Source: Microcaldota archaeon (GTDB taxonomy: Archaea > Micrarchaeota > Micrarchaeia > Micrarchaeales > Micrarchaeaceae). Taken from it: a stretch of 62,926 nt of DNA. Positions within the stretch are counted from its first letter, which is position 1, and each line of letters starts with the position of its first letter. The stretch lies in NCBI GenBank assembly GCA_021797495.1, contig JAJZZO010000006.1, positions 1 through 62,926 on the forward strand, given 5' to 3'. A model generated the notes under the pieces. That model was given only the letters and a program-made list of their open reading frames with translations, did not search any database and had not been told where the DNA came from. Made by a program: the position numbers and the translations under genes. Below are positions 2,650-45,955 of the stretch, piece by piece.

Positions 2650-2746
2650 CGGGCCCGGCGGGATTTTCATCGGCTTTAAGCCGGTTTTGAACCCGCGACC
2701 TTCACCTTAGGAGGGTGCCGCTCTATCCAAGCTGAGCTACGGGCCC
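2650..2746 (-). tRNA. tRNA-Arg (anticodon CCT) with a 22-nt T-loop intron
   Basis: The acceptor stem is GGGCCCG/CGGGCCC and the anticodon loop CTCCTAA carries CCT (codon AGG). The D-stem is GCTC/GAGC and the discriminator is G (2650). The anticodon stem has four pairs plus a terminal G-A mismatch. Between T-stem halves GCGGG and CCCGC lie 29 nt rather than 7. Removing 22 nt restores the standard loop TTCAAAT and a 75-nt tRNA. The gene is 61 bp upstream of arginyl-tRNA synthetase on the same strand. Confidence 0.9.
2664..2685 (-). other. tRNA-Arg intron at T-loop position 59/60
   Basis: A bulge-helix-bulge can be drawn directly: outer helix is the T-stem GCGGG:CCCGC; central 4-bp helix is exon TTCA with intron TGAA; the 5' bulge is AAA and the 3' bulge AAT, cut after the second base of each. 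The intron holds its own hairpin CGGC-TTAAA-GCCG. Precise cutting leaves exon TTCAAA joined to T, i.e. a normal T-loop. Confidence 0.8.
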
Positions 2747-22916: not shown

Positions 22917-23003
22917 GCCGGGATGGCAGATAGGCTATGCAGCCGCCTGCAGAGCGGCGAAGGCGGGTTCGAAACTCCTATTGCGAAAATCCCGCTCCCG
23001 GCT
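22917..23003 (+). tRNA. tRNA-Cys (anticodon GCA) with a 16-nt T-loop intron
   Basis: Acceptor GCCGGGA/TCCCGGC with discriminator T as expected for tRNA-Cys. Anticodon stem GCCGC/GCGGC closes CTGCAGA (anticodon GCA). The T-stem halves GCGGG and CCCGC are separated by 23 nt; deleting 16 nt gives the normal loop TTCGAAT and a 71-nt tRNA with a short variable region. Confidence 0.9.
22974..22989 (+). other. tRNA-Cys intron at T-loop position 59/60
   Basis: The bulge-helix-bulge is T-stem GCGGG:CCCGC, central helix TTCG (exon) with CGAA (intron), 5' bulge AAA and 3' bulge AAT, cut after the second base of each bulge. The intron ACTCCTATTGCGAAAA is only 16 nt, with almost no inner helix. Position and motif are the same as in tRNA-Arg(CCT). 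Confidence 0.82.
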
Positions 23004-23041
23004 AATAAGGCTCGCAAAACGCGAAAACCATAGCACATCAG

Positions 23042-23488
23042 TCATATGTCTATGACGACGCTTGCCTTGTACTTGTTTTTTTCGCGAGTCACTTCCAAAG
23101 TGTAACCAGATACGCCCTTAACGTATATCTTGGAATACTTCACGTTCTCATCCACATAAAGTATTTTCACCGAAGCCGAAATCCCCGAATCTGTGCTCTT
23201 CGTATTTACGCTTTCTACGGAATAGCCGTAAGCCCCTATGGAATCAAGCTCCGAAAGGGCGTTTTGCAATATATACCAAAGCAGGTCCCTCTCGCTAGTT
23301 GCCGATTCTTTTATCTTGAGGCTTTTTGGCTTGATCAATCCGTGCTCGACATCCCTCGATATTGCGCTTATGCTTGCTTGCGTGTCGAACATCGCAAGCA
23401 GCGAATTTGCAAGCAGCTCTTCCATGTCTCTGCCGTATGAGAAGAACCTGACATCGGCGGTATGCGGGACGAATTTGTACTTTAACAT
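23042..23488 (-). CDS. archease, activator of the RNA ligase RtcB
   Basis: 148 aa from ATG 23488, chosen because GGTG stands about 11 bp before it and the family begins with the following strand; ATG 23512 is the longer option. MLKYKFVPHTADVRFFSYG holds the conserved HTADV motif with the metal-binding Asp, and the C-terminus ends in the typical VVIDI. Archease promotes guanylation and turnover of RtcB during tRNA splicing. It is adjacent to the intron-containing tRNA-Cys, and RtcB is encoded at 43-46 kb. Confidence 0.9.
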   Translation of the reverse strand: MLKYKFVPHTADVRFFSYGRDMEELLANSLLAMFDTQASISAISRDVEHGLIKPKSLKIKESATSERDLLWYILQNALSELDSIGAYGYSVESVNTKSTDSGISASVKILYVDENVKYSKIYVKGVSGYTLEVTREKNKYKASVVIDI

Positions 23489-23634
23489 CAATCTACACCG
23501 TAAAATCATCAAGATTTTTATTGTTGATTGTAAACGAAATTATTTAGTATGTGTTTGTCAAACTTATATGTCCTATGAAGAGAAGAGTAACTGCTGAAAA
23601 ATGATGACGCCCATTTCGGCTGAGGACTTTTACG

Positions 23635-38853: not shown

Positions 38854-38927
38854 GCCCCTGTAGTATAACTTGGATAGAACATGAGCTTGCGGAGCTTATG
38901 ATCCGGGTCCAAATCCCGGCAGGGGCG
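38854..38927 (+). tRNA. tRNA-Arg (anticodon GCG)
   Basis: Acceptor GCCCCTG/CAGGGGC, discriminator G. Anticodon stem TGAGC/GCTTA (one G-T pair) closes TTGCGGA with anticodon GCG (codon CGC). T-stem CCGGG/CCCGG closes loop TCCAAAT: position 55 is C where nearly all tRNAs have T. No intron. D-arm is weak (GTAT...GAAC region). Confidence 0.82.
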
Positions 38928-43006: not shown

Positions 43007-45955
43007 TTAGCCCTTAGCAACTCCCAACGGCAGCAGCTTCGCCACTATGTTGGAAATTCCTGCACCCTCGACGCTCGCCACCACATCATCGACGTTCTTG
43101 TAGGCCTGCTCTGATTCCTCGCTCACCAGTTTTCTGTCCCTGACGCGCAATTCTATGTGTTTGTCGTGCATCATACCTATGGTTTTCGATGCGGGTATCT
43201 CCCGTATTGCCTGGTGCCTGGACATTAGCCTTCCTGAGCCGTGGCACGAAGAGCCGAAGCTCTGCTCCATCGAACCCTCGAGACCTGCAAGGACGTAGCT
43301 TGCGGTGCTCATGCTCCCTGGTATGAGCACTGGCTGTCCGTATTCCCTGTAAATCTTCGGTATCTCGCTCCTTCCAGGGCCGAACGCTCTCGTAGCTCCC
43401 TTCCTGTGCACTATGAGCTTCTGCCTCTTTCCGTTTACACTGTGCTCCTCTTCCTTTGCTATATTATGCGCAACGTCGTAGACTATCTGCATGCCGAGCT
43501 CGTCCCAGCTTTTGGCGAAAACCTGTTCGAAGCTTTTCCTTATCGAATCTGTCATCACCTGCCTGTTAGCGAAGGCGAAGTTAACTGCCGATTTCATCGC
43601 TTTCAGGTAGTCGTCGGCCTCCTTGGATTCGGTATAAGCGTAGCTCAATTCCGGGTCAACGAGCTTTATGTTGTTCTTTGCATTGTAGTCGTTCAGCACC
43701 CTCAGGTAATCGCTGCATACCTGGTGCCCGTAACCTCTGGAACCGCTGTGCACCATCACCACCACTTGGTTTTCGAAAAGACCGAAAGCTTTTGCTTTCT
43801 TTTCGTCCATTATGCTGCCCACGCGCTGAACCTCAAGGAAATGGTTGCCGGCTCCGAGCGTGCCGAGCTGCGACAGCCCCCTCTTCTTGGCCAGATCGCT
43901 AACCTTCGACGGGTCAGCCCCTTCCATGCAGCCGTTTTCCTCGAGCCTTTCCAAATCGTCCTGTGATCCGAATCCCTGCCTTATGGCCTGCGATGCACCC
44001 TCGACCGCGACTCTTTCGAGTTCGCTCCTGGTAAATCCCTTCTTCGCCTTGCTGCCCACGCCGCTGGGCACGTTGCTGAACAGCGCATCCATGAGCTTGT
44101 CGAGCTTCGGCTTCGCCTCATCAAAGCTCAGGTTTGTCCTCACGAGCCTGACACCGCAGTTCGAAACAACCATACCGTTCGCTATGAAATCGTGGTTCAG
44201 GTCGTCCACAGTGATGTCGTATACATAGTCGTCGTACGGCTCCGGTGTTATCTCTTCAATCTCGTCGAACGCAAAGCTTCCTCCGGCATGCGATGCGCTG
44301 ATGAACTCGTCGAAGCGCTCCAGCTTCCATATCCTGGCGCTTCCGCTGCGCCCCCATACTGAATGTTCTATGAAGCCAACGTTTTCTCCCGTTGGGTCAA
44401 GACTGCTCACGATTTCTGACGTGGCTGCCCCAGAGTTGTGCATCGATATTGCTATGCTCCTTAAGCGGTCTCGCGAGGTCTTTCTGGCCATGAGGCCGCT
44501 TAAATATATAGCAGCGAGGCTCGCAAGGCTTTCCTTGGACCTGTTGTACTCATACGACACTGTGGAAAAGAACCTCAATAGGTTATCAGCATTCGATAGG
44601 ACTGCGAGCCTGTGGCCTGTCGTCTTCCCGTTTTTGCCCTCGTATGCGTAACCGTCCACTTCTGATATAGGCGAGCATTCCACTGAGAACGACTGCAACA
44701 TCTCCTTGAGGTCGCTTAGGAATTCCACGGCGTTTTCGGAGAGGGCCTTCAGCTTGTTCACGCTTACAGCAGGCTCCGAGAAGTTGTAGCCGTTGTTGGT
44801 CAATGGCTTGGTCATCTCTGCTCCGAAGTACGCCGCCAGGAAAAGGCGCTTCTGCCACTTTTCAGCTTTCTTGATCCAGTCAGGCACGGCATAAGCCTGT
44901 GTTGCTTTGTTCCCAAGCGGAACCCCAAGTGTTGCCATCAACACACCGAAGGCGCGCGCAGGGATGTGCAGACTGTATTCTTCGTTCGCGAAGACGCTGG
45001 TGCCGTACCTGGTCGTCACGCTGCAATTTTTACGCCTTGAGTAAATGCGTGATCTCACCCCTATGGAGGAGAGATCTGCGGCCACGTTCTCCAGGTCCTC
45101 CTTCTTCCCGTAAATCGCAGTTACAAGAGTAGTCCTTGGAATCGTGCCGTCTCCCATTACAAGGCCTATCACTTTCAACAGCACCGGTACTTTGGGATCG
45201 TTGAGCTGCAGGTCGATGAAGCCGAGCCTCCTGAGATGTGCCAGGACTTGGCGCCTTGCGTTCCCTGCATCGGTTATCCTAAGGCTTTCCATTGTCCGTT
45301 CTATGGCAGCAGCACCAGCTATGACTACGCTCTGCGGATTGGAGAATTCCACGCCGTCAAAACCGGTTACAACTATACGGCCTCCAGGGGCAAGTTTCCC
45401 GGCGTTCACCATGCCTGCGTCGGTGAGCATCGGGTGATCGGAGGTCGCAGCAATCTCACGCCCGTGCCTTGTTCTTATTTTAAGAATTTTGCCGCTGTGC
45501 TTCTTCTTCATTGCAAGTAGTACATGCGCCGAGGTCGCGCCCCTCTTTACCTTGTCGTATATGCGTACCGAAGCTGAGGACATGTCACATATGCGCTCCC
45601 ATGCGCCGAACCTGTTTAGGACTCTCGAGTCCTTGTGCAGGCAGTTGATATCGAAACCGATAGCGCCAGGAGATATTATGCCCTTTGTCGCAGGGAAAGC
45701 CGCCACGCCACCTACGGGAAAACCGTAGCCCTCGTGGCCGTCCGGCATGACGAGCATGCTCCCCACTATCGTGGGCAAGCTCGCTGCGTTAATCGCCTGC
45801 CTGAGTGTCCTGTCGCGCTGCATGTTGGATATTATATAATCGTTTGCGAATATTTTCACCGACGTGTTCATGCTATTCTGTTCGTCACCGTTTATCTCCC
45901 ATACAAAATCGCTTATCTTGTTTATCTTTACGCTTTTTTCATCCATTAGAACCAT
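43007..45955 (-). CDS. rtcB: RNA 3'-phosphate ligase RtcB, interrupted by an intein
   Basis: 982 codons: 104 N-extein, 495 intein, 383 C-extein residues, giving a spliced protein of 487 aa, normal for RtcB. MPDGHEGYGFPVGGVAAFPA and GAIGFDINCGVRLVR frame the insertion; GAGNHFLEVQ, VHSGSRGYGHQV and SSCHGSGRLMSR supply further metal and guanylate-binding His residues. RtcB joins 2',3'-cyclic phosphate and 5'-OH ends in tRNA splicing, with archease (23 kb) as activator. MDEK at codon 4 is an alternative start. Confidence 0.96.
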   Translation of the reverse strand: MVLMDEKSVKINKISDFVWEINGDEQNSMNTSVKIFANDYIISNMQRDRTLRQAINAASLPTIVGSMLVMPDGHEGYGFPVGGVAAFPATKGIISPGAIGFDINCLHKDSRVLNRFGAWERICDMSSASVRIYDKVKRGATSAHVLLAMKKKHSGKILKIRTRHGREIAATSDHPMLTDAGMVNAGKLAPGGRIVVTGFDGVEFSNPQSVVIAGAAAIERTMESLRITDAGNARRQVLAHLRRLGFIDLQLNDPKVPVLLKVIGLVMGDGTIPRTTLVTAIYGKKEDLENVAADLSSIGVRSRIYSRRKNCSVTTRYGTSVFANEEYSLHIPARAFGVLMATLGVPLGNKATQAYAVPDWIKKAEKWQKRLFLAAYFGAEMTKPLTNNGYNFSEPAVSVNKLKALSENAVEFLSDLKEMLQSFSVECSPISEVDGYAYEGKNGKTTGHRLAVLSNADNLLRFFSTVSYEYNRSKESLASLAAIYLSGLMARKTSRDRLRSIAISMHNSGAATSEIVSSLDPTGENVGFIEHSVWGRSGSARIWKLERFDEFISASHAGGSFAFDEIEEITPEPYDDYVYDITVDDLNHDFIANGMVVSNCGVRLVRTNLSFDEAKPKLDKLMDALFSNVPSGVGSKAKKGFTRSELERVAVEGASQAIRQGFGSQDDLERLEENGCMEGADPSKVSDLAKKRGLSQLGTLGAGNHFLEVQRVGSIMDEKKAKAFGLFENQVVVMVHSGSRGYGHQVCSDYLRVLNDYNAKNNIKLVDPELSYAYTESKEADDYLKAMKSAVNFAFANRQVMTDSIRKSFEQVFAKSWDELGMQIVYDVAHNIAKEEEHSVNGKRQKLIVHRKGATRAFGPGRSEIPKIYREYGQPVLIPGSMSTASYVLAGLEGSMEQSFGSSCHGSGRLMSRHQAIREIPASKTIGMMHDKHIELRVRDRKLVSEESEQAYKNVDDVVASVEGAGISNIVAKLLPLGVAKG
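44159..45643 (-). other. RtcB intein with LAGLIDADG endonuclease
   Basis: 495 aa. It starts with Cys1 (CLHKDSRVLNRFGAWERI) and ends HDFIANGMVVSN before Cys+1. Block B is seen in AATSDHPMLTDAGMV (T-x-x-H). LKVIGLVMGDGTIPR and RLFLAAYFGAEMTK are the two dodecapeptides of a DOD homing endonuclease. The C-extein Cys+1 is the RtcB Cys of DINCG, a metal ligand, so unspliced protein cannot be active. Confidence 0.92.

Follow-up and report, generated by a model that had tools for sequence, protein, structure and literature searches.

The tRNA-Cys gene and its insert

The window, that is, the whole analysed stretch of 62,926 nt, corresponds to contig C9 of a Micrarchaeaceae genome of ~0.96 Mb (959 kb in 20 contigs, 89% complete). 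On its forward strand it carries a gene for tRNA-Cys(GCA) with an insert in the T-loop; the features relevant to this gene are listed below.

22917–23003, forward strand: tRNA-Cys(GCA) gene, 87-nt precursor
22917–22973, forward strand: 5′ exon, positions 1–59, with anticodon GCA; forms a perfect cloverleaf with the 3′ exon
22963–22967, forward strand: 5′ half of the T-stem, GCGGG, predicted outer helix of the splicing motif; pairs with CCCGC at 22991–22995 and covaries across relatives
22968–22971, forward strand: TTCG (positions 54–57), exon strand of the 4-bp central helix; pairs with 22984–22987 in the MFE fold
22972–22974, forward strand: AAA, putative 5′ splice-site triplet in the terminal loop; cut AA|A predicted from the BHB rule
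22974–22989, forward strand: 16-nt intron ACTCCTATTGCGAAAA at position 59/60; present (13–31 nt) in 34 and absent from 56 of 90 tRNA-Cys genes
22984–22987, forward strand: CGAA, intron strand of the central helix (4 bp); across 142 T-loop introns, base 57 covaries with the intron base opposite it
22988–22990, forward strand: AAT, 3′ bulge of 3 nt in the MFE fold; cut expected at AA|T
22990–23003, forward strand: 3′ exon with T60, the 3′ halves of the T-stem and acceptor, and U73
23042–23512, reverse strand: archease, the RtcB cofactor (PF01951, E = 4.5e-19), tail-to-tail with tRNA-Cys
43007–45955, reverse strand: RtcB tRNA-splicing ligase (PF01139, E = 1.2e-161) with an intein (PF14890, E = 4.2e-16)
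2650–2746, reverse strand: tRNA-Arg(CCT) with a 22-nt intron at 59/60 (2664–2685), helix UUCA:UGAA and an inner stem

The T-loop with its insert reads TTCGAA-ACTCCTATTGCGAAAA-T, which exceeds the standard 7 nt by 16 nt, and ACTCCTATTGCGAAAA occurs once in the window, on the forward strand. Given the raw gene, ARAGORN returns a wrong, truncated call (22918–22987) with a poor acceptor; upon removal of the 16 nt, a standard tRNA-Cys of 71 nt is regained as a perfect cloverleaf, with all stems paired and U73 in place. From the gene alone, AA repeats permit three registers of the intron boundaries, each of which gives an identical mature tRNA, and the register 22974–22989 is favoured by relatives that have C or T at position 59. 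An earlier note on this DNA had located an insert at precisely this T-loop site, as the exact position and the perfect spliced tRNA bear out, and had read it as an intron; the spliced cloverleaf and the conservation in relatives strongly support this reading, with a tRNA intron of archaeal type placed at 59/60. The case that the note had named as speaking against an intron, a second and intron-free tRNA-Cys gene, was looked for in this 89%-complete genome and was found neither by a tRNA sweep nor at BLAST sensitivity; likewise, no second tRNA-Cys was detected at BLAST sensitivity in the closed genome of Candidatus Micrarchaeum sp. A_DKE, a member of the same genus.

Precursor fold and splicing motif

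In the MFE fold of the 87-nt precursor (RNAfold), UUCG and CGAA form a 4-bp exon–intron helix stacked on the T-stem; the 3′ splice site lies in a 3-nt bulge (AAU), and the terminal loop measures 12 nt. The central helix is seen both in this fold and in the covariation of base 57 with its intron partner. A canonical full BHB does not form, as the MFE fold has no inner helix and its 12-nt terminal loop offers a single possible C–G pair; because a closed second bulge is missing at the 5′ site, the motif is classed, as modelled, as a bulge-helix-loop (BHL), a relaxed form of the BHB. On its own, the fold of the precursor has a modest z-score (−1.5), and the argument therefore draws on comparison rather than on energy. 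Of shuffled versions of the 16 nt, 0.56% have CGAA where the helix needs it; the stronger evidence is the conservation of the insert in 33 other genomes.

The 4-bp TTCG:CGAA helix and the near-absence of an inner stem, both described in the earlier note, thus reappear in the RNAfold structure; its designation of the insert as a BHB intron gives way to the relaxed BHL, in which the 5′ site lies within the 12-nt loop. Its comparison with tRNA-Arg holds for the AAA and AAU bulges, which match those of tRNA-Arg(CCT), but not for the helix, which is UUCA:UGAA there instead of UUCG:CGAA. The suggestion that 16 nt is nearly the smallest possible size for a BHB intron is refuted by the published range for archaeal tRNA introns of 11–129 nt, with medians mostly of 12–25 nt (PMC4090602), and by relatives whose introns at 59/60 measure 13 nt in tRNA-Cys and 12 nt in the tRNA-Arg(TCT) of one genome (G103). 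In an order-wide pattern search, T-loop introns spanned 12–41 nt, within the bounded length range of that search; 16 nt is a typical size that is not close to the lower limit.

Comparison across the order

A BLAST-level search for tRNA-Cys produced matches in 141 of 148 relatives, from which 90 genes were parsed: an insert of 13–31 nt at 59/60 is present in 34, including the finished A_DKE genome (NZ_CP060530), and the remaining 56 have a plain 7-nt T-loop. Within the genus of the host, the tRNA-Cys of one genome (G006) is precisely intron-free, with conserved and syntenic flanking DNA. On the EndA tree, ~6 changes of intron presence are needed, of which well-supported branches force only 2. 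All 34 intron-bearing genes have G57, compared with 23 of the 56 intronless ones (p = 8e-10), which otherwise have A57; TTC at 54–56 is likewise invariant among the 34. The T-stem, the halves of which are split by the intron, covaries across relatives at pairs 49:65 and 50:64 (G-C, A-T, T-A and C-G, G-C, G-T, A-T).

A wider set of 142 T-loop introns from the order shows base 57 paired with its intron partner as A:U (126), G:C (13) and G:U (3), with no A:C; the search pattern had fixed purine and pyrimidine, not pair identity, and, since the genomes are related, a Fisher p of 6e-16 assumes more independence than there is. AAT is the commonest 3′ triplet in this set (90/142). Of the 148 genomes, 131 contain matches to a simple pattern for 59/60 T-loop introns, and the reversed pattern gave 7 hits in all. 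As separate observations, two genomes (G097 and G142) each have two tRNA-Cys-like matches, the parsed copy being intron-free in both. A deviant TPsiC at 54–56 (TGC in 8, CTC in 3, TCC in 2), with U very unusually missing at 54 or 55, occurs in 13 of the 56 intron-free tRNA-Cys genes and in 0 of the 34 intron-bearing ones.

Splicing enzymes and known systems

The host genome encodes an EndA of 390 aa that matches the epsilon2 endonuclease of ARMAN-2 (4fz2/9w2k; E = 2e-170, 66% identity) and conserves Y236, H251 and K282 of the catalytic triad as well as the ASL residues Y160/K161. RtcB and archease are both encoded, and both lie in the window. As a side observation, the gene for RtcB, a ligase needed for splicing such tRNAs, carries an intein of its own; in addition, tRNA-Cys, which needs RtcB for joining, stands tail-to-tail with archease, the RtcB cofactor (22917–23512), with similar downstream DNA in relatives of the genus.

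In the proposed splicing pathway, UUCG (54–57) of the precursor, rather than forming the T-loop, would pair with the CGAA close to the intron’s 3′ terminus; the resulting 4-bp helix, stacked on the T-stem, would leave the 5′ site in an open loop and the 3′ site in the AAU bulge. The homodimeric epsilon2 endonuclease of the genome would then cut AA|A and AA|U, followed by joining of the exons by RtcB and archease to yield the 7-nt T-loop UUCGAAU. That the insert is a noncanonical archaeal tRNA-Cys intron at 59/60, excised by epsilon2 EndA and with its exons joined by RtcB and archease, is held with very high confidence; the cuts, the joining and the removal in the living cell are what we infer from these features, and removal is almost certainly the work of the cell’s own tRNA-splicing enzymes.

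The closest precedent is ARMAN-2 (Ca. Micrarchaeum acidiphilum). According to a 2025 NAR paper (PMC12397907), its pre-tRNA-Cys(GCA), a ‘BHL-type’ substrate, is efficiently cut in vitro by wild-type EndA; cutting is lost in ASL alanine mutants and is very poor without the ASL. One relative in our set (G023) encodes an EndA with 100% identity, over 375 residues, to the crystal chain of the ARMAN-2 enzyme (4fz2) and is therefore ARMAN-2 or nearly so; its tRNA-Cys holds one intron, ACGAATGCGAAAA, of 13 nt at 59/60, and no other insert. Judging from the genome sequence and the labels in that paper, this intron would be that of the published Cys substrate, and the intron in the window would thus be the ortholog of a tested substrate. 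The two share the orthologous tRNA, the 59/60 site, the UUCG:CGAA helix, the AAU bulge and the BHL; they differ in length (13 versus 16 nt) and in that cutting is reported for the ARMAN-2 precursor.

Other systems are more distant. The noncanonical T-arm introns of Crenarchaeota/Thermoproteales also include 59/60 as a listed site and use relaxed BHB forms (HBh′/hBH) (PMC4090602), whereas their removal there is by (alpha-beta)2 endonucleases with a CSL and removal here would be by an epsilon2 enzyme with an ASL. The nucleomorph tRNA-Cys of Guillardia theta likewise has a T-arm insertion, of 3 nt and with proven excision (PMC4090602), but in a eukaryotic remnant genome and with a far shorter intron.

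Alternative explanations

Retention of the insert in the mature tRNA-Cys, as an enlarged T-loop, is highly improbable: positions 54–57 would stay locked in a helix that prevents the T-loop/D-loop elbow, the insert is exactly absent in relatives and varies in length from 13 to 31 nt, the splicing enzymes are encoded, and in vitro cleavage of the ARMAN-2 counterpart has been published (PMC12397907). Still less probable is a pseudogene in decay that took up a T-loop insertion at random while another tRNA-Cys does the work. Poor tRNA-Cys scores from standard finders (ARAGORN, Rfam) are what such a pseudogene would give; however, all stems are perfect after splicing, another tRNA-Cys was not found by the sweep or at BLAST sensitivity in the 89%-complete genome, and the insert recurs, along with compensatory changes in the stems, in 33 further genomes, a conservation that refutes this explanation.

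The junction 59/60 is identical to that of the permuted or split tRNAs of Thermofilum pendens and Cyanidioschyzon merolae (PMC3218864), which also share a BHB-type motif. In a permuted gene, the 3′ half lies upstream of the 5′ half; here, the halves are unpermuted, the 5′ half preceding the 3′ half at a distance of 16 nt, which refutes this origin and leaves it a negligible probability. An assembly or sequencing artefact, for which only the draft status (20 contigs) could be cited, is refuted as well and is the least probable of all, given that inserts of this type occur independently in 33 other assemblies, the finished A_DKE genome among them. With the intron at 59/60 thus preferred, it is real, functional as we infer with high confidence, and ordinary for the clade, the last because the matching ARMAN-2 intron has already been cut in vitro (PMC12397907). 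By itself, it matters little, being one more ortholog of an intron for which such cleavage is on record.

T-loop introns in other tRNAs

Within the host genome, T-loop inserts are also present in tRNA-Arg(CCT) (22 nt), tRNA-Arg(TCT), tRNA-Arg(TCG) and tRNA-Ala(GGC); tRNA-Arg(GCG) at 38854 has no insert. The introns of tRNA-Arg(TCT) (contig C4) and tRNA-Arg(TCG) (contig C7) measure ~33 and ~82 nt, respectively, and the helix in tRNA-Arg(TCT) contains one U-U mismatch. The short G57-type intron is also seen in tRNA-His of other genera. Among 15 Ala, His and Arg genes, ARAGORN found 0 raw and all 15 after in-silico splicing. A practical point of the survey is that T-loop introns at 59/60 hide Cys, Ala(GGC), His and Arg tRNAs from standard finders; as a result, tRNAs that seem to be ‘missing’ from such a genome have often only escaped detection.

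The tRNA-Ala(GGC) of the host (contig C11) has a UUCG:CGAA helix identical to that of tRNA-Cys, and its intron, ACTTTCATTGCGAAAA, equals the Cys intron in length and matches it at 13 of 16 bases. Similarly, the Cys and Ala(GGC) introns are equal in length within each of the host, A_DKE and a third genome, G007 (16, 13 and 14 nt, with 13, 12 and 12 matches), and differ between these genomes; in G005 and G006, the tRNA-Ala intron is unrelated and longer. It is possible, though rather doubtful, that the Cys and Ala(GGC) T-loop introns of the genus evolve in concert, the T-arm and intron being repeatedly copied between tRNA genes as if by gene conversion or reverse splicing. A permutation test of the Cys/Ala pairs within the genus has a floor of p = 1/6, with three genomes only; once Cys/His pairs of further genera are included, p is 0.036 (score) and 0.009 (length), part of this signal being a shared consensus (AC...GCGAAAA). 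Intron transfer among tRNAs has already been described in Thermoproteales (Fujishima 2010, as cited in PMC4033280 and PMC4090602), and a literature search found no paper on A_DKE tRNAs. Intron gain, loss and inter-tRNA transfer can be tested directly on the presence/absence pairs within one genus and on the resemblance between the Cys and Ala introns.

Apart from these introns, tRNA-Glu(CTC) lies near one end of the contig that forms the window (C9, 120–194) and recurs in shortened form at the start of another (C20, 35–96); the second copy may be a genuine duplicate or an artefact of the contig end.
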